Below are positions 15,207 through 52,495 of a stretch of 64,000 bases of DNA, one piece after another. The position numbers were made by a program, and so were the translations under genes. How positions within the stretch are numbered: the first letter of the stretch is position 1; every line of letters begins with the position of its first letter. Source of the DNA: Eutreptiella sp. 'Long Island Sound 2002' (lineage: Eukaryota > Euglenozoa > Euglenophyceae > Eutreptiales > Eutreptiaceae); the NCBI GenBank assembly GCA_964036045.1, contig OZ038379.1, forward strand, positions 117,069,104-117,133,103, in the 5' to 3' direction. The notes below the pieces were generated by a model that saw only the letters and a program-made list of their open reading frames with translations, ran no database searches and had not been told where the DNA came from.

Positions 15207-15535
15207 AGCTGGCCGAAATTTTGCCTAGCTTTTTGAAGAAAATCAAAAATACATAGGCTTATTTACCAAAATAGGCCAAGCTTGCCGAAATTTCGGCCAG
15301 GTCCTTCAAAATTGGTAATATTATCAAAGAAATGGGTACCTATGAGAGCAGGAGGCACAATGAATGCAGGAGCATTGACATTTCAAGCAGCTGTCTGTAT
15401 ACACCACTTAATTACAAACAAGAGCTTGCCACGTGAACAAGTCATGCACAAACTCGTAGGGGCTGTGTAGACGAACAATAGAAATCTGCAAAATTCACCG
15501 GAGATGCTGTGGCTGGCCGAAATTTCCCGCCGGCC
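15207..15535. repeat. Palindrome family P1, three copies (3' side of locus D)
   Basis: Copies at 15207-15230, 15278-15305 and 15511-15535 share GGCCGAAATTTC(G/C) with flanking GGCC/GGCCAG arms. The idealised form is CTGGGCGAAATTTCGCCCAG. Together with a copy at 17129-17150 they bracket the minus-strand coding sequence of locus D. The related locus C at 48.5-51.1 kb is bracketed by the same family. Confidence 0.75.
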
Positions 15536-15896
15536 TTCATTTTGGCACCCAATACAGCTGAAATATGATAATACTAGCGCTTCCACAGGCCTGAGGCACG
15601 GGCCTTCTTGGGAGGCGCAGCAACTGCCGGCTTGGGTTGCGCATTGCGAGTGGCACCACCATGTGACTGTGTTTTGCCATCCTACGATAGTGAAAAATGG
15701 TTCGAAAAGGTATTGAGACCCTTTCTAGATGGGACGTGACTACCATAGGAGGATGCAGGCTTGTGTGCATTGCGTGGCGTCGGTGGGGTCAACAACCTTG
15801 GTAGCGGCAGGTTTTGGTTTTTTCCGGGGTGTGGTTATGCCCTCTGCCTGCGGTCGTGCATGGCCTTCATCCTCCTGTTGGTCCTAATCAACATAC

Positions 15897-16636
15897 CTAG
15901 GCCCCGTACAAGCAACAGGAAACCCAGTGCTCATCATACACATCATTCCAGTCCTTGGGGGGACAGGTGTCAACGTTGGTAATAGAGGCTCTCAGGCGTT
16001 GAAAACAGTCATGAGGCACAACTGCCTCTTCGCCCAAAAAGGCCAACACAACATTGCAGTCACGCGAAAATTTGGGAGATAGCATGCTAGCTAACTGAAC
16101 AGACAAATTCCCAAGCGGAAACCACCTCCCTACAGTTCCGGGGACAAGCACCAACCTCAACATATACGAGAATATGTCGATAGGTAGCACAAAGGACATG
16201 GGTCCCTCATGATAAGCTTCGTAACGTGGAAGTTTCTTTTCAAAGGCTGCACTGGAGCAAATTGAAAGCAGATGGGAACAATGAGTAGTAGTGGTACACA
16301 GTGTCTAGTGCAGTGTTCAACAGATGTCATATCGCATACAAGCTGCAACAGCTCCTTGTGTGCCATATCCAAAGGGGCACAAACCCGTACTCTCTGAACA
16401 GCTCGGTTGGCGACATCGATGCGATCAAAATATGCAACATGTGAGCGGAAGATGTCATGTGCCTCAACTTCGGCTAGTTGTGGTAGACCCGAGTAGGTGG
16501 GTAAAGCGGTAGTGTGCCACACTGCAATTGCACTAAAATTCAAAGTCAAATCAAATGTATGGGGATCAACGCCTGACCTATAACGGCTCAAATTAGCAAA
16601 CCATATACAAGTTGCCGATGAAGCATGGAGTTCCAC
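15897..16636 (-). pseudogene. Transposon-like unknown protein, locus D copy
   Basis: Two overlapping minus frames (16636-16157 and 16199-15897) carry segments homologous to the plus-strand locus C. The N-terminal part reads WFANLSRYRSGVDPHTFD..LNFSAIAVWHTT, against WFDNYRRYINGVDPHSPD..LNVTAVGVLHTT in locus C. The C-terminal part reads LSVQLASMLSP...EEAVVPHDCFQRLRASITNVDTC, against LSIQSMFPVN...EEKSILESFVTDLRAAVSNCDT. The frame change near 16160-16190 is a frameshift or an unseen intron. The DN(F/Y) motif of locus C is AN(L) here, so a catalytic residue may be lost. The family is not known to me; the P1 repeats around both copies suggest a DNA transposon. AT-richer than its neighbours. Confidence 0.5.
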
Positions 16637-17128
16637 GAGGTATGAAGTGCAAGTCTAGCACGCTGGTGAATGGAACCCTCCTCTGCGTACGTTGCACTGC
16701 CCAAGGAGTCTTACTTTGTGTCGCTGCCGGCAAGACATACTTCCCCAATCATACCCCGACCCACAGTTAGACAAGGGGAGGGCCACACAACGTAGAAGGC
16801 AATACAAGGCATGGAACTGCTGCAAAAGATATGGGTACCATCGTGGAAGCCTCTTCTGCGCAAACGCCGCCTTGAGATTGGTAGTTGAACGACGGAACGT
16901 GCGATTCCTCCTCAACGCGAGGCATATTTGGAAAAGGTTGTGAAGAGTTGCAGCACGTAAAGCATTTCAAGCAAGCCCTTTGGCTCTAGGAGCAAAGGCA
17001 CCATTGAGTGCCGCATGTACGACATTTATAGTAAGAGGTGAAGACATTAAAAACTGTGTAGAATAAGAAGGGAGCTTTGTAGGATAGTAGGGAAAATGAC
17101 AACCTTTAGACACACTAACAAACCAAAT

Positions 17129-17150
17129 CTTGGTGAAATTTCGGCCAAAT
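17129..17150. repeat. P1 palindrome, 5' side of locus D
   Basis: CTTGGTGAAATTTCGGCCAA, a member of the P1 family, about 490 bp upstream of the start of the locus D frame. Confidence 0.6.
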
Positions 17151-17389
17151 CACAAAGCCAATAACAGCCAAAGAGAGGCACAGGCACCACAGCCAAAAAA
17201 CGCTCATTTTGTCCTCACGACACCGAGAACGATCAAAAACCCCGTTTGACGGCAATGCGGTTTTAAATTGAAAATGTAAAATTGCACAATGCAAATTGCT
17301 TGTCTTTGAGCCAAATTTCCGGAGGACATTTGGGGAATCAGCAGGGTGTGTGGAAAAACACTTTTGGTTCCAAGAAAAAGCCACACATA

Positions 17390-24191: not shown

Positions 24192-24768
24192 GTTCTACTG
24201 CTAACGGTAGAAGATTTGATGTTGCCATGTCTGTCGTACGAACACCGCGGCGATGTGACCCTCTGTGTTCAGCAAGAAATATGCATTCCCATTGTTGTTG
24301 TCGCAACAAGAGCGGGCGGTGACAGAGTGGCGGGGAGTTGCAAACTTTGTTGGCATGATGTATGGTGATCCCGATCTCAGCCTGGCAATTGAAAAGTTCG
24401 ACGAGTCAAGGGTCGTGGGCCAGCACCCTTTAAATATTCAACTGGGGATATGCAATACAGGTACTGCGAGGAGTTCATGGAGTGGTTGACGGATCCGTTG
24501 ACAAAAAAGGCCACGGTGAGCATAGTGAACCGCAAAGTGAAGGAGTTGCGACAATTGCAGGGGATAGGCACCCATGTATACCACCTAGACTTGCCGATCC
24601 ACGACTCTCAATGTGTGCTATATGCTTCATGTGGGGAAGATGCTTTGTTGTACACCGATTTTTGCTGCTGGCAATAGAACAAATTTTAGACGGATCTTTG
24701 TGACCCTATCAATGCGACAGGCATTGTGTATGCAACTACAAGTTCGTTTTACTGCTGGTGGTAGAACA
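24192..24768. repeat. Palindrome family P2, first cluster
   Basis: Copies at 24192-24213, 24661-24681 and 24745-24768 match the pattern TTCTACTGCTGGCAGTAGAA with changes in the arms or loop. The last two lie in the same orientation at either end of a ~108-bp gap between two coding-like stretches. The gap is followed by a pyrimidine-rich TTTCCTTAG that would suit a 3' splice site. Confidence 0.75.
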
Positions 24769-25690
24769 CCCTGTCCTATCGGCAATGTCATGTCCTATTT
24801 CCTTAGGCACTGAGAGCACAGTGAAACACGCGACGGCTTTGGACAGCCGGCTGTGGAGTTGGGGACTGCGGGGACGAGCAGCAGTGATATGGAGATTGGA
24901 ACGACTTTTGGTGAAGGCAAAGGATTTGCTGAAGGCCAAGTTCTGGACCTAGGCAGCCTACCAGGGGTTGAGGAAGAGCCTGCTAGCAGACATAGAAGGT
25001 AATGTGAGCACAGATGCCGCACAAGATGGAGTGGTTGAGGTGGTGGTGAACAACAAGATGCGGACATTGCAATATTGCAAGGACAAGATGGCAACTGTGA
25101 GTGCGGCCCACCTGGTGTACCTTGAGCTTGGGCCCCAGGAACCAATGGACATGATCCCTGTGGTGCTAGGTGGCACGTTGGTAGCTGATGGGACCCCTTG
25201 CATTGTGTATGGAGCCAACGCAAGGGAGCAAGCCGCATCCCTGCAGTAGAGGTAGCCTGTACAGGCAACCTCGTACAAGACAGAGATCGCGGTATACAAC
25301 ACAAGGGAAACGGACATGGTTGTGAAGGGCAGCCGGACTGAGTTCACATGCAGTGTTCTTTGTACTGTGTTGTTGTAGCCCAAGAAAGTCGTGCTGCATC
25401 CGCTATACATGGTTATGAATTACCCATGGCCAACCTCGATGTTCCACTGGTATGAACTTTTGGTCCCATCGATGAATGTGCCAACTGATCCGGCACAGCC
25501 CATGCTGTTGGTGTTTCCCGTGTGCAGCCGCTCAGCCCAACAAATTTTGAAGACTGTGTCCGCCAACTCTAGCCAACTCTACTCTATGCGATGGACCATC
25601 CGTTTCTGGGATTGCACTGGCCTACCACCCAAAAGCATGCAAAAGGCGTTGTTGGATGAGGTGAGCTCCACAAAGCTTAGGCCACGCTAA
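24310..25690 (+). pseudogene. Broken or intron-containing plus-strand gene, unknown
   Basis: Pieces: 24310-24489 (FVGMMYGDPDLSLAIEKFDE), 24450-24677 (ECxEFMEWLTDPLTKK; LDLPIHDSQCVLYASCGEDA), 24758-25249 and 25391-25690. The last two share one frame and contain coding-like sequence (AAHLVYLELGPQEPMDMIPV; MRWTIRFWDCTGLPPKSMQK). Stops at 24950-24952 (TAG), 25247-25249 (TAG) and shortly before 25380 interrupt the frame. The 24.66-24.81 kb gap may be an intron that carries two P2 palindromes. Total coding would exceed 380 codons. I do not recognise the protein; neighbouring P2 repeats suggest it belongs to a mobile element like loci A-D. Confidence 0.4.
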
Positions 25691-28600
25691 CTACCCGCCC
25701 CTTACGACCCAAACATGTGCACTTCGTCGCCTTTTCTGTGTCTTGTTTTTGTGCCTATGTTTTCCATGTGTCGCCTGTACTGTAATAGGTGGTGACGAAT
25801 AATTGTACATTTATTGCGTGTACTATGCATACACACTTTGCAACTCAAATTCACTGTCTCTATTTGCCAATTTGCCAAGCTTCTCAGGTGTCTCATAGTC
25901 TTTGTACTCCAAACCCCGATCTTCAATGATGCTCAAGGTCTCATCTCCATCCAGTGGCACCTTTTTCTTGGTCTTCCCGCCTCTTTGCTGGCACAATTCT
26001 GCTGGCCTTCCAATGATCTCGCTGAACATGGTCTCCTCATTGCTCCGCTAGGCTCCCTGGTGTAGGCCTCCCGCCATCCTCAGCACCGCTGTGGGTGTGT
26101 CTGGTTTCATCACCACGGCTTGAGTCTGTGTGTAGGGCTTCGGCAGGTTTGCTTCATCAACCCGCCCCCCCCTTGTACCACGGGTGCCGTCTTCCAGCTA
26201 AATATCTCATGTACTCCGGCGGAAATGTGCTAACCCGCAATGGGGAAGTACGTGATGTATGTAGAGGAACGGAGTACAGGTCTCTACTGTCAGCGGTAAA
26301 ACTAACATCGAACGTTTCTTGGGGGCCTTTCGGAATATTGCACCGGCTCAAATTGTTTTCCACTACTAGCAGTAAAACTCAAACGACAGTGTTGTACTAC
26401 ATGCAAAAATACCTTGTAGGTCAAGTAAGTCTGCATCTCCGCCACCAAGCCTCTCAAATGCAGGCCTGCCCTGATCTTGCCGAATCGCCTGTTGCTGAAC
26501 AGACATGACTGTCCACAGCATCTGGGTCCTCACCACACCAGGTGCTTCAACGGTATGCACCCCAGGGATGCAATCCATTTGCGGACCTCTGTGAGCGCTG
26601 CTTCGGCCTCCTCATCCTTCTAGTGCCGTGTCGCATCCACTTTCTCCCCCTCTCCACTGTCCTATGTGTCCTCATCTTCGTCCTCCTCATCCTCCTCATG
26701 GTCATTGTGGTCGCCTGCATGCCCATCTACATCCAGGGGCTCTCCTCCAACACTGCCATGGCTTGCCACTGCACTAGAGTGCACTTCCTCGACTTAGTCG
26801 TCGGAGGAGTCAGCGGGAGGATCCGGCAATGGACCGGTTGGCACAGGGGCGGCCTCTAATGGGGTGGCTCATTATGCGGACCGCCCTGTGTCCTGCGCCC
26901 CCCCCGCGAGCGTTGCCATCTTCAAAAACCATTTTTCCCAATGAAGGCTACCAAGGATAGTTACGGAAGAAATTGGGAACAACAGGCCCAAATGGTCTAT
27001 GTTGCGGGCAAATTTGGCACTGTACCCACTATGTTTCGTCACATTGCATCACACATTCACTTTGCATCTCCCCTACTGCGCTGGGTTTTGCACTCTCAAG
27101 TTTCCTTCGGACGGGTGCATAGGCACTATGTAGCCACACCGGTGCGTTGCGAGAAATGAAAGATCACAGTGCTCGTGGCTTGTGTCGCAGACCATGTCTG
27201 CAATGTTTGGCTGGTACAAATCTATACCTCAAGCCCACAATACGCTTCAGCGGTCGAGAAGTTCCGTCACCTTTTACTACTCATAGTAGGGTGTCGGGCA
27301 TCGACTTTTTGCGAAAAAGGTGATTGCACGTTTCCTTTAACGCCAAAATGGTGTTGTACGCATTTGACATGGCATGACGCAACGCACATCCTCGTCCATC
27401 ATCGCCACCCCACGTACCTTCTCCCACCGTTGGCAGCAAAACAGCACTCAAACTCAACACACGTAACAGCATATCACAACAGTACCGTGTATGCGTGCAC
27501 TGCATCCGAAAAGGCGGTAATGAGCACAGTGTGGCTTTCTGCTGCTGGTAGTAAAACCATGGCGTTAATCCATTCTAGTCACACCACGGCCGCCATATGA
27601 GTTGTCACTGTCCACAACTGCAGACGACAAGCGGGAGACGTCGCATGATGATGCATCATTGTTGGAGGCAGCGTCCCCATCCAAAATAGGGGCCGCGGGG
27701 TGTGCAGGTGCAGCACCAGCCGCAGCAGCAAGTCCGGGTGCTGCAGGGGGGGGGGGGGGTATTGGAACCGCCCCCCTGCCACCGCGTGGGGGGGGGGGGA
27801 TCGCCCACAACATCCCCACTAGTGGGGAAGGGATGCAGGCGTGTATACCCGAAATGCGCACAAACGTTTATGAATCGCCGCTCCGGGCGCAGGGTGCACG
27901 GCCATCTCATCCGCATCACGCGGCAGATGCGCCCTTATTGCTGCAAACTTATGCTGACTTTCTACCCTAGTCTCACTAAACAAATAACACATCCAATGAA
28001 CAATATGCACGATATAGGACCGTAGCATCGGCAACCCGGGTACTGCAGGGTGGAAAAGCAGGGTCCTCCGACCACTCCATGGTAGCCACCAGGGTGTTGG
28101 CGGCGCGGGCACCCTGCCGTGGCCGAACAGCCATCTTTCTTACAAAGGGTATGGTACCTGCATGAATGCATGCTAGCAACCGTGTAAAGTGCATGGGTAC
28201 GGCCCCAACTGTTTCGCGGGTGCCGTGGGGGCTACCGAGGCGCTTGCGGGTACCCGGCTGCTGGTGGCGCACCCCAACACACGTGCTGTGGCAGTCCACA
28301 ACACTAGTAATGCTGGTGTCCTCGCCCAAAAATATCCCCTCAAGCTCCAGTAGGAATCAGTGCCTTTGCGGTTGTTGACAATGCTACGTCACGTCGAGTG
28401 GCTGGGTTTTTGGAGTACCGGGCTTTGTTGAATTGGTCGACCCAAGCAACAAGTGTACCCCCCGGTGTTGCAACATTCATAGAACCTCCTGATCACTAGT
28501 ATCTACACGTGTCGCCAAAGGCGCCTAACGCCCTGACAACAAAACGGAAGCAGCAAGCTGAACACAAACTCTTTTGGAAACCCTTGAAGTGTCCTCAGGC

Positions 28601-30273
28601 AGGCCGGCCCGGGCACTATCTAGATGACTAAGCTTAATCAGCGTACAGTACAACACAATGCTGGTTGGTATCAACCTCCGCAACCATTGCTTCCGCCCAT
28701 GGTCCTCCGGGTCCTCCTTGATGTTCACAGAGTGCTGCTGACGGGTCTTGGGGTTGATGCGCAGCTACGGACAAACGTCAGCAAGGAACTCAGCGGTCCG
28801 CCATCAATAGCATCGCCACACGGGTCCTTAGCGAACGCATGGGAGGTCTCCATATTGAGGAAACTACGCCACATGTCCAAGTCAATGGCACCGGAGGGCG
28901 GGGTGCAAGACATGGGTGTCTAGTAAAAGACGACGGCGCACAGGGAGCTTCTGCTGTTGGCCGTAAAACACATGTGCCTTTGGGCACAGTTGACCCAACT
29001 GTAGCATACGAGCGTACAAGGGGTGACTGTGTCATATAACAAACTAGTTCATAGACGTGCATGTATTACACAATGATGGCTGATGGGGCACATTCCATTA
29101 CCGTGTATTCTACTACCGGCAGTAGAACTGTATCTCAACCCGGAACATCATGGATATATGTCCCACCATTGACAAAACACAATAGTAACGTGGAAGACGT
29201 CATGCAAGTACCCGTGAACACGTCGCATGTACGTTGGTGTATGCTGACAAGGAGACATATGTATGTACCATGGGCCTGATTACATACATCCTCCAAACTT
29301 GTGACATGGAGTTCAATAGGGTAGGATAGTAAAGCAACGGGACACGAAAAATAAACATGGCATACCCAGGTGATGGTATCAACAGGGCAGTAGTCACCAG
29401 GGAGGAACCCATGGAGCACTGTTGCAGCAACGCACCGCAGTGTCAGGCTTGGTGAATACGGCGAGCTGCTTTACTACCAGCAGTAGAATCATGGTGGGGG
29501 TTTTATTGCGGGCCTACATCAGGGACATATGGAAGGACATGTGTGGTAGGGTACTGTACAGCAACTGTACAGTGGACCATGACGGTGGGAGTGTTGTACT
29601 TGTCACCCCAGTAATACGGGGTACACTACGGGCGTAGCCCGTAGTTTTATGGTCATACCACATGTATTAACGAGCACGTGTCATCTTGGAGTAGGTCTAC
29701 TGTCAACAATAAAAGGACACACCAAAACTGAAAAAGAGTTTGTTGGGCTACTAAGTAGAGCACTAGTATCACCATGAAGCAACCATGGTAACACAGAACG
29801 CGGTGTGCAGTAGCAGTATAGACAGGCTGCATAGATGGAAAGATACTGCCACTTCAAAACAAGTCATGCCTTTCTCACCCGCCCAAAAGACAACCTTGCC
29901 TCTTGTAATATGCGTAGGACGAGTAGCAACCCTGTGCGGTAAAACATATACCCATGTGCGTGTAGGCGCCCCGGAGCCCAAACCCCTCCCCTTTGAACCC
30001 CATTACTTCCGGACGCGAACTGCAACCCGATAGGCCTGGCCACCCTCCCCTTCAACGCCCAGGCTGCTACGGATGAAAAGCCCATCCACGGTTTCTTCAA
30101 CTAGTGGTGTGCCCTCCACGAGAAGAGTTGCTAGGACTGTGGTGATGTGCACACGCCGCTCACTTCATGCAGGGCCCTTGAGTTGCGAATAGGCCGCTAG
30201 GGGGGGCAGTGCTTGCGTAAACGCTGCCACAGCCTTGTCGATTTAAGACCCCTATGGACCAAGATTGGGCGAT
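25691..30273. other. Region with many P2 palindromes and weak frames
   Basis: No gene could be assembled. Coding-like scraps include 26095-26508 (+), 27169-27600 (+), 27976-28329 (-) and 28624-28923 (+). G-tracts occur near 27746-27760 and 27787-27799 and a C-tract near 26900. The repeated feature is P2, listed separately. Confidence 0.5.
26281..29716. repeat. Palindrome family P2, dispersed copies
   Basis: Copies at 26281-26302, 26357-26379, 27271-27293, 27536-27558, 28947-28970, 29107-29130, 29468-29490 and 29695-29716. The clearest is TATTCTACTACCGGCAGTAG at 29106. All read in the same orientation (TTCTACTG arm first, an A-rich GTAAAAC or GTAGAAC arm second). Several begin just after a GT, such as TACAG|GTCTCTACTG near 26278 and GTAG|GTCTACTG near 29694. 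Copies tend to come in pairs 75-265 bp apart. Confidence 0.7.
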
Positions 30274-30443
30274 GGAACCCCTGCTAGAACCCCCTTCCAG
30301 CGCTAGAACCCCCGCTGCAACCGCTACTACCCCCCTTCCAGCACTGGAACCCCCCTTCCAACGCTGGAACCCCCCCCTCCCTTCTAGCGCTAGAACCCCC
30401 CCCCCCTCCAGCGCCGGAACCCCCTTCCAGCGGCCTTTCCAAC
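30274..30443. repeat. Repeat family P3 (CTGGAACCCCC/TTCCAGC), cluster 1
   Basis: About ten copies of GGAACCCCCCTTCCAGCGCT in variants. The junction CCAGCGCTGG is itself palindromic. Lies ~200 bp beyond the stop of locus A. Confidence 0.85.
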
Positions 30444-30642
30444 GGTGTCATGTACTACCACCTCATGCATCATTTACAAGCAGTTACCATGGTTCCTGTC
30501 CCGGGGCATGCTCTGCACCCAGAAATTTTTTGGGTTTTTTTTTGGCATCCATCAGTCCACATCCGAAATGGCCCACATGTGGCACAATGCACAATGTGCC
30601 ATACATATATCTGCACCCTCACTCAGAAGAGGCGAACATTCT

Positions 30643-31735
30643 TCACTTCTGCTTCTGAAAAACGGGGAGGTACTTGTTGGACCGCTCCTTCTCTTCCTCC
30701 CACTTCTCTCGCATGTGCTTCAATTCGCCGTCTACCACTAGCTTCTGCCTTTTGTCGTCGTCCATTGTCTCCTCGACCTCCTGTGCTTGCTTCTCTGCGG
30801 TCTTTACCTGACTCTTTGCTACAATGAGCTCCCCTCGAAGCCTCTGCACCTCACGGGTTGTCCTCGCTGCCGATTTTGCCTTCAGAGCCTCGCGCATGGC
30901 AGCAGGCAAAATATCCTTCAATGTGGTTTGGAGATGTCCCTCCAATGTGCGCACTACGCCATCAGAAATGCCCCGCGCTGTTTCCTCCAGGGGAAATGGA
31001 ATGGGGGACGGGTCCGCAAGGGGCACGCTGACAAGGGGTGTGGGCTTGGTCGGGGGCTTTGCGGGCGTGCCCGTTGCCTGCACGTCCTCCCCTAGGGGTA
31101 CCTTGGGAAGGAGCTGCGGACTCCTCCTCGACGACCAAGGGTTCAACCTTATGGCCCCGCCCTGTCAACGGCTCCGCCACCCGCTCGTCAACCCACTCGT
31201 GCACACGGGTCTGAACTTGTGCAAGAACACAGGCTCCACCCACACTGGCAAACTGCTTCAAAGAGTGCCAAACCTCCCACTCACCCGCTGAAGCATCCCA
31301 CACGTGGTAGGTGTATGATTCGTGTGCCTGTGCTGTGGCAGCAGCACACAAAAATAACTCCTGGTGTGCCGGGTTCTTATTGTCTGTGATGCGCAAAGGC
31401 AAGCGGAGTACCAACAACTGTGTTGGTTGTGCCTTAACCCGCAAACTTAGGCATCGGTATCAATTAGTCTTCCCCTTCAGAAAAAAACTCTGGGACCAGT
31501 CCTCCGAATTCACACCCGCGGTTGCCGGCCACATTATCGCCTGCGTGTCCACCTCCCCACCAATCTCTAACATCATACCCTGGGGCTTCGCAACGACACC
31601 CTTTACCGAAATCTCCACCTTCGGGACTACCTCGGCTTCCTCGCTGCAAATCCCGTCCACCAAAAACAGCGACAACCAAACGTCCAACGTGGCCTGCGGC
31701 ACAAAACGAAGCTGGTAAATAAACATGGCAACCAT
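30643..31735 (-). pseudogene. Locus A, C-terminal part of a large unknown protein (coiled coil)
   Basis: Reading on the minus strand: ATLDVWLSLFLVDG...VPKVEISVKGVVAKPQG (end of 32134-31460), then QLLVLRLPLRITDNKNPAHQ...VWHSLKQFASVGG (31444-30962), then a frame change near 31105 into 31146-30643, which has a Pro/Thr-rich stretch and a C-terminal coiled coil (LRGELIVAKSQVKTAEKQAQ; LKHMREKWEEEKERSNKYLP). TAG near 31460 separates the first two pieces. The same order of motifs occurs in locus B (37.5-39.0 kb), which supports coding origin. An AG preceded by TTTTGTGCCGC just upstream of GCCACGTTGGACG fits the 3' end of an intron holding the second P3 cluster. Function unknown. Confidence 0.5.
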
Positions 31736-31740
31736 GCAGT

Positions 31741-31935: not shown

Positions 31936-31939
31936 CAGA

Positions 31940-34098: not shown

Positions 34099-34132
34099 GG
34101 ATGGAGAGCAGCAAATGTGGAGGTAGAACCAG

Positions 34133-35356: not shown

Positions 35357-35410
35357 ATGTGGCCCCATTTACACGTACGGGCATGCACATCTTCAAGTCC
35401 TTTTTGCCAT

Positions 35411-36589: not shown

Positions 36590-36728
36590 TCACTCCTCAC
36601 TACCCCCCAGTAGCCACCAGCTTGCTAGTTGATCGGGGCTACTAGTTCCCCCGAGGGTGCAATGCACGTACGAAGGCTCGTGCCACGATGTGCCGTCCAC
36701 TGCTAGTGGTATCCAATGCAGCCTTGGA

Positions 36729-37194
36729 TTACCGGTTCAACCGGTCGGCAGCGGTACAGGCTCGCAACTGCGCCGGTAACGGGCAGAAGGCTCCGTATAG
36801 CTCCGTGTCATCCCCCGTCTTGGCTACAAACCCCTCGGATGCGGGGTGTGCAAGCTGCTGCATGGTGACCCACATGTCCTGCCACGGTACCCCCTCGACT
36901 AGATGGGGAGTGAGGTACTGTGCCTGTGTCCTGGACACGTGCAGCGACGGAATGCGCCACACAGCAGCGACGGCCTTCTCCCACATGGATGGTGTGGTGG
37001 GCAGAGCACAACTACCACCCCGTCTACCGGCGTGAGGACGATCTGGCCCGTGTCGGGGAGGTGCTTCACCAGATCTCGGCTCCAAGGTCCTCGGAGACAG
37101 CGTCCTGCAATGTCCTCAAGCGGCGGGCCCGGTGCTGCCTGGTTTTGACATGGGCAAAGGCCTTCTTACCCTTGGCGCCACTGCCACGTCCCAT
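36729..37194 (-). pseudogene. N-terminal part of the KDZ-like transposase gene
   Basis: ATG at 37194 opens a basic leader (MGRGSGAKGKKAFAHVKTRQ, then LRTLQDAVSEDLGAEIW) ending in TGA at 37066-37068. One frame over it continues as DLVKHLPDTGQIVLTPVDGV, and the third frame as WEKAVAAVWRIPSLHVSRTQ to 36729. Two small indels or short introns would join these to the core at 36589. The polarity, the strand and the short gaps make one gene the best reading. Confidence 0.4.
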
Positions 37195-37334
37195 GACAAA
37201 AAACCGACATTAGGCAATAGGCAATGCATATCAATTTGCAATGTCGAGAAAGTCAAACAAAGTCAGCCCCGTTGGCAAACACCGCAAAACAAAAAATTTG
37301 TACAACCACCCCATGCGTTGGGAACTAGCATTAA

Positions 37335-37448
37335 ACACAAATATTGTATAAGTTCGCGCAAAGTTCGCATAAACCTCAGGACAGTAGTCGGCTGAGTTGT
37401 TCGCGTATTTGCACAAAATCACGCGAAGTTCGTGCGAAATTCGCGGCA
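37335..37448. repeat. Repeat family P4, cluster between locus B and the transposase gene
   Basis: GTTCGCGCAAAGTTCGCATA, ACGCGAAGTTCGTGCGAAAT and TTCGCG words; arms of the form TTCGCGCGAA. Confidence 0.75.
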
Positions 37449-37509
37449 CGATGAGGACAGCGGTCGGCCCCGTTGTAATTTACAATGGTTAAAAAGGCCG
37501 TTCGCAGGG

Positions 37510-39006
37510 CTACACTACGGGGTCGCAGTGCTTGTGGAGGTCCCAGACCCGTGGGCTGCGGGGGGCTGGGAGGGCTGGGGAGGGGGGGGGGGGGGGCTCC
37601 AAGGCGGGGTTAGTGGCGGCCTCCACCAGGGCGTCCCCCGGGTACCGCCTCTCGACAGCGTCATGGCTCTCCATGGCACCTTGATACCCCGGCACCACCA
37701 GATCGAAGGTCGGCCCGTCCTTCTTGTGAAGCAGCAGGCGCTCGGTGGAGGTCACTGCTTAGAGCTCCCCCTTCACCTTCTCTTCATGAGCCTTCCAAGC
37801 TTGGCTTCCCGCCATAAGGTACTTCGTACCGGCCCCCACCCCCGCCCCTGTCCCCACGCCTTCCGTCTCCTTTTCCTACTGCTGCCAGTGCGCGACGCCT
37901 TCGGCTTGGGTTTGCGGGCCCCCGCCCGGAGAAGGTCCCGGTCCGGCTCCGCCGCCCTTGCCCGCCGCTCCGCCTCCGGCCCGCTGCTCTACCTCCTGGA
38001 GCTTACCTCGCAGTAGGAGAACCTCCCCCTCCGCCGCCACCGCCCGCTTCTGCCACTCGGGCATGGCCCCCGCCTGCGCAGCCACCCAAGCGTCCACGTG
38101 TGCGGCGGCCTGCGTTGCCGGCAGGGGCTTTGCACCCGAGGGCTGGCCACCGATTTGGAGGGAAGTTTGTGGCCTTGCGGGGCCAGCCCACCTTGCCCCT
38201 TGACGTGCCGCTCTTGGAGCTCCGCATGGAGGAGGCATCGTCCCCCTCCCCCCCCCCCCCTCCTCTGCATCCACCTCCACCACTCCCCCCACCACCCCCA
38301 AATGCTTGCGCTGCCCCTCTTTTGCCCGCGTGAACATTTGGAGCCAGGCATAGCTCATGTGCGCCTCCGCCTGGTCCCCCCATCCCCTCAGCCCCGTCAA
38401 TGCCAACAATGCCAACCGGTTCAGCTGCCCCTCCGGCGGCCCCACCCTACCCTTCAACGCAACAATGCATTCTCCAATGCCCTCCACGCAGCCGGCATGC
38501 GTAGAGGGCAATAATTGTCTCGCCCTCCTTCCACCTTCCCCCGGGGTTGAGGAACGTGATGGCACAGGGGAAAGAGATTTTGAGGGGCGGCTCCCGCGCC
38601 CCATCCTGCGTCTCTACCTCGACCTCCCAGGTCATTGCCACGAACTCCTCCCTTGCCCCCTTCCGTCGCGGGAGGTTGAGCTTCCATGCGAACGGGAGGT
38701 GGGACCGCGGCATGGAGAGGTAGGTGATGGGGCGGAGGTCGTCGGGGTAGGCCGTGCCCTCCCCCCCCCCCCCGCCACAAGGTTTGCGACGACCACGGGG
38801 TTTGGGGCGGGGGGTGCATGGGGGGTTGCAAGAATGGCCGCCCGGGCGTCTGCGGGGGCGGCGCCGGCCGACCTCGAGGGCACGTCCAGGGTCACGTGGC
38901 GGACTGTGCCCGACTGTGCAAGAGCATCAATGTGCCCGGCCGGGCGGAATCGCTTGTGGGCGTGCATGGCTGCACGGGGATCGGGAAGCCAGCAGTGCCA
39001 TGGCTC
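37510..39006 (-). pseudogene. Locus B, C-terminal part of the large unknown protein
   Basis: The exon starting at 39006 reads EPWHCWLPDPRAAMHAHKRF... TVRHVTLDV...NPVVVANLVAGG, then (shifted frame, 38713-38447) LPFAWKLNLPRRKGAREEFV, LKISFPCAITFLNPGGRWKE and IIALYACRL, then 38604-37876 ECIVALKGRVGPPEGQLNRL, AHMSYAWLQMFTRAKEG and a coiled coil (EGEVLLLRGKLQEVEQRA), ending in Gly/Pro-rich sequence. A further frame 37755-37510 may be the C-terminus. Motif order equals locus A. Frame changes near 38640 and 38510 and C/G homopolymer runs suggest decay, although some could be introns. Very GC-rich. Confidence 0.5.
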
Positions 39007-39161
39007 CTGAGAATGACATGAAAGGGAATAGTGTAACTATTCATGCCAAATTCGCGCGAAATTCGTGCGAAATTTGTGAATCTGCATGCCTGACCGAATA
39101 TGAAGCATTTGCAAATGCGCAGCACAATCTCGCGAAGTTCGCGCGAACTTCGCGCGAATAC
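39007..39161 (-). other. Spliceable GT-AG intron carrying P4 palindromes
   Basis: On the minus strand the gap begins C|GTATTCGCGCGAAG and ends TCATTCTCAG|GAG after a pyrimidine-rich stretch. Removing 155 nt joins ...CDVSIVFYP in phase 0 to EPWHCWLPDPRAA... of the downstream frame, with no stop. Most of the intron is P4 sequence (TTCGCGCGAA repeated, with spacers). This is the clearest intron in the window. Confidence 0.6.
39040..39161. repeat. Repeat family P4, cluster inside the locus B intron
   Basis: Two groups, 39045-39080 (TTCGCGCGAAATTCGTGCGA) and 39129-39161 (CGAAGTTCGCGCGAACTTCG), about 80 bp apart. Confidence 0.85.
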
Positions 39162-41038
39162 GGGGTAGAAGACAATGGATACGTCACATTCACACGGGCA
39201 GGTCACTGTCCACGTCCCTTTCTTGCACTCCTTTGCCCGCTTCCACGCCGGCTCAGCGTGCAGTATAGCCCCAAGTGCCCTCGTCACCTCCACGTCCCCG
39301 TCCGTTGAATCCCCCTTCATGACCTCCATCTCGTACGCCCCATTCCACATCAAGATGTCCCCCGCGTGCACGAGGACGGGGGAGATGTCGTGGGCGGAGC
39401 GGGAGAGGAACAGGGGGTGGTGTGTGCACACGGGGGGGGGGGGCTGGCTCCACCTCAGGGGGGCTGAAGATGTCGTCCACCATGTCCCGGGTGGCCAGTC
39501 CGACCCGAGCCTCCAGTCCAACCCCCAATAGCAACAGTTGCCCAAAAGTGGGCACGTCCTCCCCGCCCTCCCCGTCCAGCAGGCCGAGGCAATCCTTGAG
39601 CGCCACGGGGAGGGGGGGGTCGAGATGCGTCGTATTTGGCTTAACCCACGAATGACGCCCCTCGGGGGTCCACTGCGTGACCAGTGCCCCCTGCATCTTT
39701 TGCCCGGGGGGGGGGGGGGGCATGGTGCCGGGCAGTGCTGACGAGGACAAGGATCTCCCCCTGTTGGAGGAGGACCTCATCCCACCTCTCCTCTGTGGCC
39801 TCCCCCAGCGCCGTTCCCGCCTGGACGTTGATGCGGTACTGGGGAGAGAGGGCCACGAAGGTCGAGATGTGGCAGCTCGAGGGGTTGCGGTCAGTGGGGG
39901 GCAGTCGAAACATCCGTGTGGGGGAGCTGGTCCCCCGACTCAGCACCCGACATGATGACGGAACAAGGCATGTCAAACAAGTCTTTAAACGGATCGGGGA
40001 CACGGTCGTCGATGCTGTTAATAAATTTTTTAATAGGGGCACTTGCCATTATCCCGGTTTTGGTGGGCTTGGACTGGTACCGCTAGGGGCGGGTGGGGTC
40101 CTTCCTCTGCTCCACCACCGGTTTCACATTGAACACCGGGTCAAAATGTTCACGAACTTAGTTCCCCGCCCCCCAAAATTGTCCGCGACAAGAATATCAC
40201 GGTGATTTGTATAGCTGAGGCCGTCCACGAAGTTATGAGCCATCGGGGGGGCTGAGCGGTGAGCCAAAACAGAGGGGTTGGCGGTGGCATACGAGGGGGG
40301 GTCCTGCAGGGGTGCCCTGCGCAAGGGGGGCTTGGGCGTAATGAAGGGGGGGGGGGGTCCGCGATTCCCCGATACCAACTGAGCCCCTTGAATCCTATGG
40401 AGAGTGGGCAGAGTGATATCCGGGATGTGGTGGAGAGGCGGCACGGTTGGGTGGCTGGGCAAGATGCCCACATTGTCCCACCACTCGACTTGCACTGCCT
40501 ACCATTCAAAATGAAAGGTTAGAGTGGTCAGCCTGCGGCAGACCGGCGGGAAAGTGGTTATTGATGGCCATCATGTCCATCCGCATGGGGCAGTGAACGA
40601 GGCCACTGGTGGGGTAGATGGCACAGAGGCCAGGCTTGGGTTTGCCCACGGTGTGCTTGGCCATGATTCCCAAAAGGCTGTCCACGGTTGAACCGGCGGG
40701 AATGAGCCGGACGGCCCGCAACCCCGGGAGGGCCACCTGCAACTCCCGAAAAAGGTGAGTGGGCCAACCTTTTTCCCCAAACCATCCCACTCTTTCGGCT
40801 GTTCGCATGTCAACATGAATCAGCTGCGGGGGCGTGGCAAACCCCTTCGCCCACCGCACCACGTCCTCCACTGCCAAGCCCCCGCACTCAACGGTCGCGT
40901 CCCCTCTCCCAGATTGGGTCACTCTCACTCCCAACCCGTCCGATGGCACCCTGGGCCCCTACTAGGGCATCCCCCTTCGCTCCGGCAAATAGGAGGAGGC
41001 CACGTACATATTTTCACAAAGAAAGCAAAGGTGAGGTC
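39162..41038 (-). pseudogene. Locus B, N-terminal part of the large unknown protein
   Basis: Pieces in transcription order: 40949-40506 (GLGVRVTQSGRGDATVECGG; VRLIPAGSTVDSLLGIM; KPGLCAIYPTSGLVHCPM), 40495-40124 (MQVEWWDNVGILPSHP; NFVDGLSYTNHRDILVADNF), 40042-39641 (YRINVQAGTALGEATEERWD; EVLLQQGEILVLVSTARHH) and 39545-39162 (VLVHAGDILMWNGAYEMEVM; KKGTWTVTCPCECDVSIVFY). These line up with YELETLTVQ, GLCRYCGIFANSPVH, DMVVFMSELIHCGG and GTILIIRSGLFGG of locus A. The repeated 'GxILxxxS/N' pattern suggests beta-sandwich or cupin-like folds, but I cannot name the protein. Frame changes between pieces are introns or frameshifts; homopolymer C/G runs interrupt several places. Confidence 0.5.
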
Positions 41039-41090
41039 TGAACAAAAGACGTACGACAAGAACAGCATGCTCATGCACAAATCAAAGGAT

Positions 41091-41170
41091 ATTCGTGCGA
41101 AGTTCGCGCGAATGTGAATGTGGATACTGATGCGAATACGATTGCGCACGAGGTTGCGAATTCGAACGGG
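41091..41170. repeat. Repeat family P4, cluster at the 5' side of locus B
   Basis: ATTCGTGCGAAGTTCGCGCG followed by GCGAATACG and GCGAATTCGAACG words. On the minus strand this begins GTATTCGCATCAG and ends near TTTTGTTCAG|ACC, so it may be another intron (about 41145-41039). Confidence 0.8.
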
Positions 41171-41339
41171 AACTTGTTTTTTTTTTGTGAATTTAAGCTA
41201 CATTATGACCGATTCGAGCTACAATTCACGTCGTTTGAATTCTATGAATTTTTGGCGAAGTAAGCATAGCAAACGGGCACAAAGACAAGGCACCACGGGC
41301 AAAACGGGCAAGAAATCAAGAAAGTGAGCGTACTCATTC

Positions 41340-42850
41340 AAAAGTTCCGTTTGCAGTGGGTACATGGTGCTACCTATTCCGGATGCCCCCATTGGAATCA
41401 ATCCATACTCCCATTATCATCAAAAGATCACCCAACAAGCCCAAGGGTCACCAAGGGTTGTTCAAGGGGCAAATTGAAATTTCTTACTTCGCACTTCTTA
41501 ACTCAATCCATGTAAGCTCAGTCCAATAAGTGGGCCAGTGAGGGCCCATAACGGGGGCCGATCTTGGAATTTTGGAGATGGCATCCGGGACCCCGAGCAT
41601 TGGTTAGGGGGTCCATATGGAGAAAAAAAAGACCGTTCAAAATTGATGCATATTAGGAACTATATGCCAAACTTTTGTGCACCGCAGTGCGAAAAATCCC
41701 AAAACGGCAATTTTCTAGACCCATGAGCAACACTCATAGGGGCTAATTGGTGCCACATTGCTCCCCATAGGTTCATATGTACTCCCATTGTCACCAAATG
41801 ATCACCTAACAACACCCCAAGGATACCTGGGGTTATCAAAGGTCGCGCTCAAATCACGATTCCTTGACCGGTCCATGCCGGCAAAAAAGCTTCCTAGACC
41901 ACCGCAGCTTCCCTAAACCCATTGTATTGAGCCGAATAACCCCATCCGGAAGAGGATGGTGGGCGCACAGCTCTATAAGATAAGGCAAAGGCAGTTGCCG
42001 TCGGCGGCCGTAGTCACGTGACACACATATGTTTGATTAGAGCCCTAGCAAAACGTGAGCCGCTACCCTTCTACGCCATGTTGTGACAAGGGCCTTCAAG
42101 GGTTACATACTGGTCAGCCAAAAGCACTTGAAGCCCCCTACAGCTCATCGACCTCAGCCCTTGGGGCCTCCAAAGCCACTTGGGTGGCCTATGTGGTCTA
42201 TCTCCCTTCCGAGAATACGAGGCCTTGGGCGGTTGGCAGGGATGAATCACGGGTTGACTTGTCACGGGTCAGTCCGAGGCAGGCGAAGGGAGGGCGTAAA
42301 TCTGCAACGAGAGTATTGTTAGACCACAAGGGTCGGTTCTCGTCCTCTCTGGATCATGCCTTCCCCGCTCTCTCTCCTCTTCCCTTGCGCCGCAAATTTT
42401 CTCCCATGCCTCATGTCTCTAGCAAACCTAAAGAAATATACACTAGCACACCTCTGCTTGCAACAATGTCTAGCACATGTCGCCCTCCCTCCCCTACCCG
42501 TGAAGTCTGAACCTTGGCGTCCAGTGGCGTGCACGTACAGCTTCTCCGCGCTTGCATTGCTGCGGTCAAGAGGGCTCCATCTAGTGGTGTAGTGATGCTC
42601 TTCACGCTCAGCTCGGAGCACCGTGCCACAGTTCAATTTGCTGGCTTGCGCCGCCACAACCAGCGTATGGCATTCTCGTGCATCTATGTTGTGACTGGCA
42701 TCATGCATGGCCCCCCGAGGCTGCTAGGTAACTGTACGCAAGGTTCCTCTACGATAGAGGTGGCCGGCGTGGAGCTGCATGATGGCCTACTCTTTGCTCC
42801 TCCATTGTGGCTATCGGTGTTTCGTGGGTCTACCTCTGCGATGCACCTTG
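41340..42850 (+). repeat. Non-coding repeat R1, copy 1 (segments A-B-C)
   Basis: Segments: A 41340-41760, B 41770-42240 and C 42240-42850. A and B both begin with a variant of CCCATTGTCACCAAATGATC (near 41410 and 41779), so they contain a direct sub-repeat about 370 bp apart. All three segments recur at 52640-54060, with A and C inverted and B direct. C keeps a short reading-frame similarity between copies (SCIYVVTGIMHGPPRLLGN; IEVAGVELHDGL), which may be a decayed exon. Confidence 0.75.
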
Positions 42851-48504: not shown

Positions 48505-48781
48505 CCTGGGCGAAATTTCCCCCAGCCCCCCCGGATAGCAAAAAAGGTATACATATTTTGATGTCTTGATGACCCTGGGCGAAATTTCCCCCAGCTCCGC
48601 CTCTTATGCAAAATGTATAGGTCAAAAACACCAATCAGTGATCCTCGGCGAAATTTCTTCCAGCCCCCCCCCCCCTGTTGTTTCTTTGCTTCGCCTGTGC
48701 CTGATATGTTGCCCTTTCCCTCACTGTCACTTAGGTCGGGGAGTCGATAAAGTTGAACCTGGGCGAAATTTCTTCCAGCTT
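48505..48781. repeat. P1 palindromes, left cluster of locus C
   Basis: Four copies: 48505-48525, 48574-48594, 48643-48663 and 48758-48780, each (G)GGCGAAATTTCYYCCAG. The last is TGGGCGAAATTTCTTCCAGC inside a 26-bp stretch that is the exact reverse complement of the right-hand copy at 51042-51067. Confidence 0.9.
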
Positions 48782-48871: not shown

Positions 48872-49453
48872 ATGATTGATGTGCGCTTTCTTCAAACAGC
48901 CGCGGGGGGTACTCGCGCTCGTACCCCGAAGGCTGTCATTCGGGTGGCATTGAACAAAGGGAGGACACTCCCACTGCTGCAGCTGGCTTTGCGTCACAAT
49001 AGAAACACTAGACGTAATGTTGGGCATGTGCGGGCTGTGTGGGGTTCTAGTCGTCCACCAAGATGGTTGTTGGTCCTGCAGAAGCAAGTTTTCTCACTGT
49101 ATAACATTGTGCGAGTGCTGACGTATCCTTGTGCTGAGAGAGCCACTGGAGCCTCATATGGCGGTACAATGACCCAGTCCATCCGCCGTAAGCTGGCAAT
49201 GGCAGGGGAATGCACTATCAATGCCCCTACTATCTCGGCCCAAGCCTGTGTTCAAGCTTCATGCCTATGGGATTCATTTGAGAGACAGCAAATTACACTG
49301 TGGTTCGACAATTACCGTCGCTACATCAATGGGGTGGACCCCCATAGCCCTGATAAGACTTTGAATGTGACTGCTGTCGGTGTGTTGCACACCACTCAGG
49401 TGCCCCAATGCCACGGTCTGCCCGGTCTGCACGGTATGCACTCTGAGTGGTAG
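48872..49453 (+). CDS. Locus C transposon-like protein, N-terminal exon
   Basis: 194 codons from ATG 48872: TPKAVIRVALNKGRTLPLLQ, LRHNRNTRRNVGHVRAVWGS, SIRRKLAMAGECTINAPTIS, WFDNYRRYINGVDP and LNVTAVGVLHTTQ. The last segment is shared with locus D. A donor-like CAG|GTGCCC follows HTTQ at about 49400, and the next ~180 bp contain a P1 palindrome and end in a pyrimidine-rich TACCCTCTGCAG, so the frame after HTTQ may be intron. The DNY after a conserved Trp recalls 'DNF/DNx' motifs of some eukaryotic transposases, but I cannot name the family. Confidence 0.45.
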   Translation: MIDVRFLQTAAGGTRARTPKAVIRVALNKGRTLPLLQLALRHNRNTRRNVGHVRAVWGSSRPPRWLLVLQKQVFSLYNIVRVLTYPCAERATGASYGGTMTQSIRRKLAMAGECTINAPTISAQACVQASCLWDSFERQQITLWFDNYRRYINGVDPHSPDKTLNVTAVGVLHTTQVPQCHGLPGLHGMHSEW

Positions 49454-49488: not shown

Positions 49489-49510
49489 GCTGGGCGAAAT
49501 TTCGCCCACG
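49489..49510. repeat. P1 palindrome in the probable intron of locus C
   Basis: GCTGGGCGAAATTTCGCCCA, the most symmetrical P1 copy, between the N-terminal exon and the next coding piece. Confidence 0.85.
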
Positions 49511-49596
49511 TCTCTCGATTTTCGTTCATAAGCATACCATTTTTCAACTGCCTCATTCGTGTCCTGTGTATACCCTCTGCAGCAAATCTAGGTACT

Positions 49597-50523
49597 GTGA
49601 CCATGTGCAAAGAACAATGTCGTCTTATGGCCCATATCCGGGTCTTGTACTGCAACTGGGTGTGGAGTCCCGAGTCCCCTTGGCCACCGTGGGCTTCTCT
49701 TGTCAAGGCAATCTTTTGGACCTCCGACCCTTACCAAGGGTTATGTGACAGGCTTCGCAAGCCCCGTGTGACACCAAGTATTGGAAAGGCTGACGGTGGG
49801 CATATGAGTCTTAAGTTGGGTGACACCATTATTGAGACAGACACAGGGAAAGTTCTGAAGGAGGAGGGTAGAGTTGAGCTACTCCCTTTGTGGGCAGGCT
49901 GCCCTGTTCCCAGCTTTATTAGTGCACTGCCATTTGTCTGCATCATGATTGAGGTCCCACGTATGTGGACGTTGGCCCTGCACAATATTGTGGCACAATT
50001 TGTATTGAATGGTATTTTGGTGGCAGTCACCGGTGAGACTGCTGATCTTCGGGCCTATGTTAGCAACCTGAAAGCTGCCTGTGCTGAGGAATTTTTCCAT
50101 GCCGATGTATGTGTGTACAACCTGTCCAACCCATGAGCACTGTACAGCATGGGACAGACTGCTCTTGCACTGTGTAGTCTGCACCAGTTTTCTGCGCGCC
50201 TACCCCGATATCTTTCTTATATTCAGGGCCCCCTGACGACTGCCATTCTTGTTGAAGTGTTTTGTCATTTGCTGTATGCTTTGGATTTAATTCAGCAGAA
50301 TGGTACATGGGTAATGGTCTGCACACAGCAGCCACATTTTTCTGCAGCCCTGTCTATTCAAAGCATGTTCCCTGTGAACATTGCAGCTGCCTACTTGTCT
50401 GAGGAGAAATCTATTCTTGAGTCATTTGTTACTGATTTGAGGGCTGCTGTGTCGAACTGCGACACTGTGGCCCAATCCAGTGGGGCCGAGTGTGTGAAGA
50501 CCTTGCACATGGGTTTCCAGTAG
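49597..50523 (+). pseudogene. Locus C transposon-like protein, central and C-terminal parts
   Basis: From about 49735 one frame reads RLRKPRVTPSIGKADGGHMS, SLKLGDTIIETDTGKVLKEE, SFISALPFVCIMIEVPRMW and DLRAYVSNLKAACAEEFFHA to TGA 50134-50136. It then resumes in the same frame (SMGQTALALCSLHQFSARLP; GTWVMVCTQQPHFSAALSIQ; SEEKSILESFVTDLRAAVSN) to TAG at 50521-50523. The last segment matches the C-terminal part of locus D. Before 49735 a different frame (YGPYPGLVLQLGVESRVPLA) looks more coding-like, implying a frameshift there. The two LRA(Y/A)VSN-type stretches may be an internal duplication. Confidence 0.45.
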
Positions 50524-50915
50524 ATTGTACGGGAAGGAGGTATATAGAGCAAGAAGAGGAGGCCACCCAACCAGAGGAAGAGGACGGTGAAATACAGAAA
50601 CGCCCCCACCCCCCCCCCCCCCCCAAAGGCAACCGTCAGGCGGAGACGGCACCCCCGCCAAGGCCAAAAAAATCAAAGGCTAGAGGAAGCCCCTCACAGC
50701 AGAGCCCCAAGCCTGGAGCAAAGCCCCCACCCAACAAGGCGCTGGGCACGTTTGCACCCCAGTTCACACCGTCCCAGCAGACACAGAATGGACATGGTGC
50801 CACTGGTAGTGCTAACAGTGAGATGCCTGGTGACCAGGCAGCACAAGCAAATGGCGGGTAGTTTACTGGTAAGGGTGCCAAACCAAAGGCACGTGGCCTG
50901 AGGAAGCGGCGATAG
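50524..50915 (+). CDS. Locus C, Pro/Gln-rich C-terminal tail or separate ORF
   Basis: Directly after the previous stop, in another frame: RRYIEQEEEATQPEEEDGEI, a Pro run, RPKKSKARGSPSQQSPKPGA, and (after TAG 50859-50861) FTGKGAKPKARGLRKRR. Acidic, then proline-rich, then basic; looks disordered. Probably the C-terminal tail of the locus C protein displaced by a frameshift or intron. Confidence 0.35.
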
Positions 50916-51043
50916 AGTGACACTGCTATGTGCTCTAACTGCTGTGTTGTATGTTTTCCCTGTTGCACGTCAGGATGCCGTTCTGCGCTGTCTCTGCAGA
51001 TACCATTGACGTTTTGCGCACTGTTTTTTTGTGTTTTACTAAA

Positions 51044-51134
51044 GCTGGAAGAAATTTCGCCCAGGTTCAGGTATTTTTTGGAATACACGGTTCGTTTTTA
51101 CATTTTTCTAAAGCTGGAAGAAATTTCGCCCAGA
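51044..51134. repeat. P1 palindromes, right cluster of locus C
   Basis: Two copies, 51044-51065 and 51113-51134, both GCTGGAAGAAATTTCGCCCA, i.e. the reverse complement of the left-hand form at 48758. This orientation rule gives locus C (about 48755-51068) a terminal-inverted arrangement. Confidence 0.9.
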
Positions 51135-51882
51135 GGTCTCATTAATGGCAAATAGAGACCTTGATTATGATGCATGAATTTGAGTGACTGTCAATTGACA
51201 GTTTTTGGGCACACACAGGGTGCAGCAACCCTTTGCCAAGTGTGTGCTACCCTACTTCTTGCACTGCATCGCCTCGCAGGTTCATACATTTGTGTGTAAC
51301 ACTGGAAAGGTTTGTTGTATTCTAGAAACCTTCTTTCTTCCTCTGCTTTTCCAGTATGCATGCATGCTTATTGTGTTTTGACACCTGGGGTGTGGTTACA
51401 TGAGAATGGCATTTTAGGTAAATAGAGATACTCATTTTTTGTTACCAGGTGCAAGGGGTCCCCTAGGTGCAGAATTCATGCCCTGTTTTTTTTGGGGGGG
51501 GGGGTACAGTATGGCCCCGCGGAGCCCAGCCTGTGGGTAGGGGGGTGGGCAGCTAGCGTGGCCTAAGCAAAGAATGCACTGCCTCCGGACTTTGAAGAAG
51601 AGTTATCGTTGTTCACCACGCGCTCCACCAATTCTAGCTCGGCAGCCACCAAGATCCCTACTGCATAGGACATGCAAAAGTTTGTCGAGAAGAGTGGGGT
51701 TAAGGGAAAGAAGAAGTAGTCCTAGTGTCTGCTGGATGTTGGTGTTCTATTGTTGGCAGTCCCCCCCCCCCCCCCGCGCGGAGGATTTTGGTTGCTGTTT
51801 GTCGCTGTGATGGGTTTCTGCCGTGTGGGGCGAACTGTGTTCCTGTGCACTTTGCACTTGCTGCCTGTCACCGTGCACCTGT
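51135..51882. other. AT-richer spacer, no gene
   Basis: G-tract near 51494-51503 and C-tract near 51763-51775. Only short frames. Confidence 0.5.
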
Positions 51883-52495
51883 GTTCTACTGCTAGTAGTA
51901 AAAGACAGTGTGTGCATCCATGCGACATGCACCTTGTTTGCAGCATCAGTGCACACACACTGCCCGTCATGATCCAGCCCTACCGGGCTTATTTCTGACA
52001 GTGTACCAGTGTTGTGCTGGTCACTTCTACTGCTGGCAGCAATACCGTTATTTTTGTTTGCTTCGCCATATGGGTTCACTTCTAAGCCACGCATCGCTCT
52101 CACTTCACCGTATAGCAAACCTGCATACCGTTGGGATTACATTGCATGTTTTTGCGCATTTGGACTGTGATGCATTCTTTTTGTTCCTCGAGTCAGGACG
52201 TCCACAGGTGTGTGGTGAACAAAGTTTTCCGAACAGCTTTTTGTGGTGCAAGTTCTACTGCTGACGATAAAAAAAAACATTGCAGCCTTGTAACACACTG
52301 GTATCAGCCTTGCGGCTGTGTTTCGTTGCCATGTGGATACATTTTTGTTCTTGCCTGTCTTCCACTGTTTCCTAACACATCAACGTACCGGGTTGTGTGC
52401 TTTTGCTTCAGAACACCGCATTTTCAGTTTACCATTTCGTCCCACATTCGTGTTTTCCACCGTCTACCGACGAGTTCTACTGTCAACAGTAGAAC
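51883..52495. repeat. Palindrome family P2, second cluster
   Basis: Copies at 51883-51906, 52023-52046, 52252-52275 and 52474-52495. The last is perfect (TTCTACTGTCAACAGTAGAA plus one more pair at each end). Spacings are 140, 229 and 222 bp, all in the same orientation. No protein is assigned here; this may be the tail of a P2-type element 22 kb from the first cluster. Confidence 0.85.

Follow-up and report, generated by a model that had tools for sequence, protein, structure and literature searches.

The DNA analysed here (the window) is a stretch of 64,000 nucleotides from Eutreptiella sp. 'Long Island Sound 2002', and it is a nest of mobile elements in which a transposon carrying the palindrome P1 lies within an element carrying the palindrome P2, with 22.6 kb of other material lying within P1 (Table 1). 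The left 204 bp of the window P1 copy are separated by 22.6 kb from the remainder of that copy, and the DNA between them, at 25880-48500, is therefore material inserted into P1. Two further elements, C and D, carry the palindromes P3 and P4, respectively, and a relic at 15.2-17.2 kb belongs to a sister family of P1, which we refer to as P1'.

Table 1. Features of the nested elements in the window (TIR, terminal inverted repeat; TSD, target duplication).
Feature	Position	Strand	Details
P1' relic	15209..17151	-	palindromes at 15209, 15281, ~15513 (by eye) and 17132
P1' relic, transposase fragment	17047-16259	-	P0103, 57% identity over 290 aa
P1' relic, gene 2 fragment	16286-15875	-	gene 2 profile, i-E 1.3e-13
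P2 element A, left part	24192..25675	+	sites 24193, 24660, 24747; cut by P1 insertion; left border provisional
TSD CAAAG, left	25671..25675	.	perfect pair with right
P1 left terminal 204 bp, TIR CTTAGGCCACGCTAACTACCCGCC	25676..25879	+	90.7% identity to left end of copy L014; TIR and TSD
P2 element B, truncated	25880..30003	-	sites 26282, 26358, 27422, 27537, 28949, 29108, 29468, 29694
Element C	30004..34466	-	P3 arrays ~30293-30422, 31742-31937, 34125-34281; about 30 other places
Element D	35053..41367	-	P4 clusters 37353-37449, 39040-39159, 41092-41112; 24 other copies, 81-88%
Remainder of window P1 copy, including right end	48501-49429 + 49437-51567	+	comparison with full copies
P1 left subterminal array	48506..48778	+	sites 48506, 48575, 48644, 48759; offsets match other copies
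P1 transposase gene, N-terminal part	48872..49429	+	84.6% identity to P0079 over 188 aa
P1 gene 2 (second protein)	49489..50591	+	
P1 internal site	49490..49509	.	probable gene 2 intron, from the sequence
P1 right subterminal pair	51045..51133	-	69 bp apart; reverse complement of third/fourth left-site type
TSD CAAAG, right	51568..51572	.	perfect pair with left
P2 element A, right part	51568..52495	+	sites 51884, 52025, 52253, 52475; right border provisional

Relative to full copies, as much as ~3.1 kb is missing from the interior of the window P1 copy, between positions 49429 and 49437, and the transposase profile matched this copy at 48878-49444 (i-E 1.2e-53). A DNA search with 48.5-51.1 kb as the query, in which 40 of 679 candidates were scored, gave long matches of which most began at query position 938 (window 49437), at 89-94% identity. 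P2 sites flank the P1 element on both sides, and the best reading of the P2 DNA at 24.2-25.7 kb and at 51.6-52.5 kb is a single element (A) split by the insertion of P1; a weak gene 2-like match was found in it at 24887-24982 (E 0.16-0.9). The P2 sites at 26.3-29.7 kb belong to a separate, truncated copy (B), which is multicopy, its other copies running on past both of its borders in the window, and which has a transposase-like motif at 28349-28462 from one weak match. The complement of the P2 palindrome begins with GT and contains AG, for which reason a GT-AG mini-intron was considered for P2 and then set aside.

Element C is truncated at its left end, past which two other copies run on, and its right terminus is common to three copies. 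The P3 arrays recur at matching places in other C copies, and one strand is kept in all clusters of a copy, so the mirrored layout seen in P1 (below) is not general. Element D has the TIR CCCTTTGCGAATGG..., seen at the ends of two copies, and from these copies its target duplication is likely TA, by which, together with the TIR, D differs in type from P1. Those ORFs of D that were scanned had no Pfam family, C gave only sub-threshold matches, and neither element matched the A3 profile.

To define the palindromes, consensus scans of both strands of the window were compared with 40 local dinucleotide shuffles each and with a reversed-pattern control. P1 (up to 3 mismatches) gave 9 sites, with none in the reversed pattern or the shuffles, and P2 (up to 5) gave 23 match lines, which we counted as 15 distinct places (reversed 0; shuffle mean 0.28). 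The 14-bp core of P3 (up to 2) was found at 9 sites (reversed 0; shuffles 0.17). The 18-bp form of P3 (up to 4) gave 13 matches against 3 reversed and a shuffle mean of 0.40 (maximum 3), and is less specific because of these control matches. For P4, the 21-mer (up to 5) gave 9 matches, some of them overlapping (reversed 0; shuffles 0.07), and the 10-bp core (up to 1) also gave 9 (reversed 0; shuffles 0.80). The existence of the four palindromes, proposed in a first-pass annotation of this DNA, is thus borne out against both kinds of control. All P1, P2, P3-core and P4 21-mer matches fell within the intervals assigned to them in that annotation, and the matches outside these intervals were at 18179 (P3 18-bp form) and 60861 (P4 core). 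The assignments of P1 and P4 need amending: P1 had been placed at both 15.2-17.2 and 48.5-51.1 kb, of which the second interval holds and the copies in the first are those of P1', and P4 had been placed at 35.3-41.2 kb, which holds from 37.35 kb on, the match at 35337 being weak. The window contains 104 perfect inverted repeats (arms of at least 8, loop of at most 8) against a shuffle mean of 9.7; by count, 28 remain outside two AT runs, and only 5 of these are P1-P4 sites, so most copies of P1-P4 are imperfect palindromes. An Rfam gathering search of the window gave 0 matches, and a Pfam search of 10 window ORFs gave nothing above threshold, with sub-threshold matches only.

Comparison of P1 copies showed a transposon of ~6.4 kb with the inverted repeat CTTAGGCC and a 5-bp target duplication; the left terminus reads CTTAGGCCACGCTAACTACCCGCC, with its inverse at the right, so that the element ends in CTTAGG. 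The duplication was 5 bp and perfect in the window copy and in 9 of 12 fetched copies, the exceptions being L017 (one mismatch), L009 (6 bp) and L010 (rearranged). With L010 left out, the other 11 fetched copies were aligned with the window copy, and sites were located at 207, 277, 346 and 461 near the left end, as a pair at 2805 and 2875 between the genes, at 4314 in a probable intron, and at 5863 and 5932 near the right end of 6383 positions. The clusters sit about 200-520 bp inside the element ends, in addition to the sites in internal non-coding gaps, and some copies carry individual sites in decayed form or lack them, in part through deletion. On the left, the first two sites have CCCCCAG at their end and the third and fourth are CTGGGCGAAATTTCTTCCAG, of which the right sites carry the reverse complement; the middle sites are symmetric. 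The pair at 2805/2875 lies 3' of the gene 1 stop and, read by eye, site 4314 is probably within an intron of gene 2; the proposal that palindromes occupy introns therefore fits some internal sites, and fails for the pair in full P1 copies. Conservation within the family was 0.915-0.967 at the sites and 0.906-0.970 in their flanks, with no clear excess, which neutral decay of the copies would lead one to expect and which gives no positive support.

The 2.28-Gb genome was scanned by pattern matching with reversed patterns as controls, and 415 matches were found for P1, 70 exact ones for P2, 373 for P3, 232 for P4 and 6168 exact ones for the P1' palindrome, every reversed pattern giving 0. The palindrome sets had been described as private to their loci, which is wrong since each has tens to thousands of matches across the genome; they are private to element families. 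For P1, 30 of 50 listed places had a neighbour at most 6.5 kb away, and 25 were at element spacings. For P4, 68 of 100 listed places had a listed neighbour within the same distance, against 0.29 expected if the places were uniform, and 56 were at the spacings of element D, which were fixed after seeing the window and the list of places. The 50 listed P1' places, all on contig C1, each had another listed place no more than 7 kb away, and 18 of the gaps measured 68-72 bp. Seven of 50 listed P2 places lay inside known B copies, the other 43 being unplaced, and 7 of the 13 B copies on contigs 1-11 carried an exact site that, by arithmetic, corresponds closely in place to window site 29108. For P3, 39 of 100 listed places were inside the eight C copies known on contigs 1-3, five of which had a cluster ~250-310 bp from the right end and two of which had no exact site; the C copy in the window has one internal exact site only. 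The uniform scatter that the first-pass annotation had named as the contrary outcome was not seen among the listed places, and its proposal that each set is owned by an element is upheld by the recurring P1 offsets and by P2, P3 and P4 sites that match in place in other copies. Together, these data show that each palindrome set is tied to one element family, at set offsets, and recurs genome-wide in that family, and ownership of P1-P4 by mobile-element families is strongly supported.

The sister family allowed a comparison of P1 with a related element. The P1' palindrome, CTGGCCGAAATTTCGGCCAG, differs from that of P1 by one base in each arm, and the P1' transposase P0103 shares about 43-49% of its protein sequence with P1 transposases. 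A P1' copy (ends L055 and L056) of 6539 bp had the TIR CTTAGGCGTCACAAGTTGCCCACCC and the 5-bp TSD TGTTA. In this one copy, on which the P1' offsets rest, the left sites were at 206, 277, 347, 418 and 487, compared with 207, 276, 345 and 460 in the P1 copy L011, and at the right end the distance from the terminus to the outer edge of a site was 418, 489 and, for a third site, 722 bp, compared with 429 and 498 bp in L011. Between the sites, the two families resemble each other no more than shuffled DNA does; over the first 205 bp the value is 0.605, and the mean of the shuffles is 0.626. In addition, three P1'-family protein records read through the palindrome, and P0137 has two palindrome copies after gene 1, counted as 23 codons (69 bp) apart. 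Co-evolution of the palindrome with its element, which had been one of two explanations put forward, is supported for P1 and P1' because the bases changed symmetrically, a single one per arm, while the offsets (from one P1' copy) and the ~70-bp spacing were kept.

The transposase belongs to no Pfam family at E 0.1 in any of 29 members, and none was found for gene 2 in the window piece or the L020 copy. An AlphaFold model of the transposase, built from a deeper alignment (a shallow one gave a pLDDT of 50.1), has a predicted fold that may be nearest those of P element, Hermes and RAG, with weak Foldseek E values (6.5e-3 to 0.05), and we infer that the catalytic residues are D150, D282 and a conserved E. 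The model had no match at E 0.001 in a viral structure library, a sequence search of solved structures with the first profile matched nothing but ribosomal proteins (best E 0.053), and no relative was found among viral contigs with a DDE_Tnp_4-like protein. Relatives of the transposase occur in other records on short contigs, which are probably metagenomic. The genome also has chlorophyll a/b-binding genes, and the best LHC match was a 620-residue LHCI-2 chain of 9vfj, which may be a polyprotein antenna.

DNA sites of an element-encoded dimer are indicated by the recurring offsets, the regular spacing, the mirrored orientation, the dyad symmetry and the symmetric change from one sister family to the other, and we consider it probable that P1-P4 are family-specific cis sites, bound as DNA by such dimers, of the several mobile-element families nested here. 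Chance or low-complexity clustering has in its favor that P3 lies in C-rich sequence, in which TRF finds tandem arrays of 20-41 bp, and that its 18-bp form had reversed matches. However, the shuffles and reversed controls in the window and the reversed controls across the genome, all of them 0, refute chance, and we give it next to no credence. A function in RNA is unlikely rather than far-fetched: the palindromes can fold as hairpins, and most P1 sites are where transcripts could run (the 5' leader, the spacer between genes 1 and 2, the probable intron and the 3' trailer), such that hairpins in UTRs and introns might affect transcript stability, splicing or small-RNA production. The mirrored P1 ends and the 68-72 bp spacing in separate clusters nevertheless suit a DNA architecture better, and a palindrome lacking a loop is a poor hairpin.

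Host proteins, such as silencing, replication or chromatin factors, might also bind the palindromes, and for any single family a host factor is compatible with the data. Yet the palindrome differs in each family, and one host factor is not expected to track the symmetric change between P1 and P1', which makes this explanation quite improbable. The palindromes are short, repeated and in non-coding gaps, as small selfish hairpins spreading locally inside the introns and UTRs of elements would be, and such palindromes are reported for the organelle DNA of Volvocales. Local spread, the other explanation put forward in the first-pass annotation, is disfavored since the positions are nearly fixed across copies and in both P1 and P1', families only ~43-49% alike in protein; in addition, all 50 listed P1' places had their listed neighbour close by. 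We regard selfish hairpins as very unlikely.

Cut-and-paste DNA transposons are defined by features that include a DDE transposase with an RNase H fold, TIRs and a TSD of constant length, which is 8 bp in hAT and in P elements and 5 bp in Transib/RAG, where the ends are of CACA type; KDZ is the name of the Pfam domain for Zisupton-type elements. P1 and P1' have TIRs and a TSD of 5 bp, and their transposase has the predicted fold described above. That length is shared with Transib/RAG and differs from hAT and P elements, and the CTTAGG ends of P1 and P1' are not CACA-type. At E 0.1, the 29 transposase members had no hAT or KDZ domain; they likewise had no THAP or P-element match, and no Pfam match links P1 to Transib/RAG. 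In Hermes (hAT), subterminal repeats are bound by BED domains at several sites per end (PMC10368747, excerpt), and differ from P1 in being short AAGT-type repeats, whereas in Galileo, of the P-element superfamily, multiple THAP sites, several per end, are located inside long TIRs (PMC3688188, excerpt).

En/Spm is among the closest known systems. An excerpt of the report on the soybean CACTA elements (Tgmt* and Tgm1) describes family-specific subterminal repeats able to form palindromes, and TNPA of En/Spm working through its subterminal motifs (PMC2613891). Because of these repeats, the earlier statement that no described family has private palindrome sets was too strong. As far as this excerpt goes, P1 and En/Spm are alike in having two element proteins and clustered direct and inverted subterminal motifs that differ between families of one genome. 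They differ in their ends and TSD (CACTA and 3 bp, compared with CTTAGG and 5 bp in P1), in the P1 proteins having no Pfam match, and in the internal sites of P1, none being mentioned for soybean CACTA in the same excerpt. By analogy, the family-specific subterminal arrays of P1 would resemble En/Spm in working and not in membership. Private palindromes combined with regular internal sites had no match among the titles and abstract openings of the literature searched, and within the P1 layout it is the internal sites that are less usual relative to known systems.

If P1-P4 are DNA sites of element-encoded proteins, a dimer of the transposase or of the gene 2 product would bind the palindromes, and the subterminal clusters would pair the two ends and let a transposase pick its own family. 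We infer that the internal sites may serve to load this protein or to titrate it, or may repress the element genes, in the manner of TNPA in En/Spm. Protein and palindrome would then diverge together, such that families stop cross-mobilising. It is possible, and we propose it only tentatively, that P1, P1' and probably P2 form an undescribed superfamily of DDE transposons marked by a palindromic "address" with a period of ~70 bp at the ends and in the interior, in which a symmetric change of the address, in step with its protein, gives rise to new families, the unrelated elements C and D having converged on this layout. If this is correct, the elements would represent a lock-and-key radiation in which the ruler (offset and spacing) is conserved and the letters are not. 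In sister families that share a ruler and differ by a symmetric change in the palindrome, nature offers an experiment on how the DNA-recognition code of a transposon changes without loss of function, and the P1' sites, in their thousands, would allow that code to be read statistically.

Across the genome, among the copies listed, the P3 palindrome arrays of element C have C-tract linkers that lie on the same strand in every cluster of a given copy, in contrast to the mirrored layout of P1, a transposon family. In element D, the mobile element that carries the P4 palindromes, a 124 bp segment looks to be inverted in the window copy, since the remaining D copies in that listing carry the segment on the reverse strand. 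Seven D copies with near-equal scores were found inside 0.8 Mb of contig C3 of the host genome (170.96-171.74 Mb), which suggests a segmental duplication there.

Locations of features in the window
Feature	Position	Strand
Segment of element D	40885-41008	
Further repeat family, partial copy 1	41405-42794	
Further repeat family, partial copy 2	52664-54216	
Transposase-like gene	47082-48186	-
Tandem units, ~1.04-1.22 kb each	1-2750 and 56700-57480	
Light-harvesting (chlorophyll a/b-binding) genes	2990-8750	

On either side of the nest of mobile elements were partial copies of one further repeat family, mutually inverted in part. The transposase-like gene, distinct from P1, is immediately left of the P1 part starting at 48501. 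Its protein has 92-94% identity to a database protein (P0001) listed with PF13359; a Pfam search with the window's own ORF returned no family.

The tandem units at the left margin have a diverged copy 54 kb away. The light-harvesting genes contain tandem units at ~740 bp intervals, and their top match in a PDB search was an LHCI-2 chain of 620 residues. Their arrangement is polyprotein-like.
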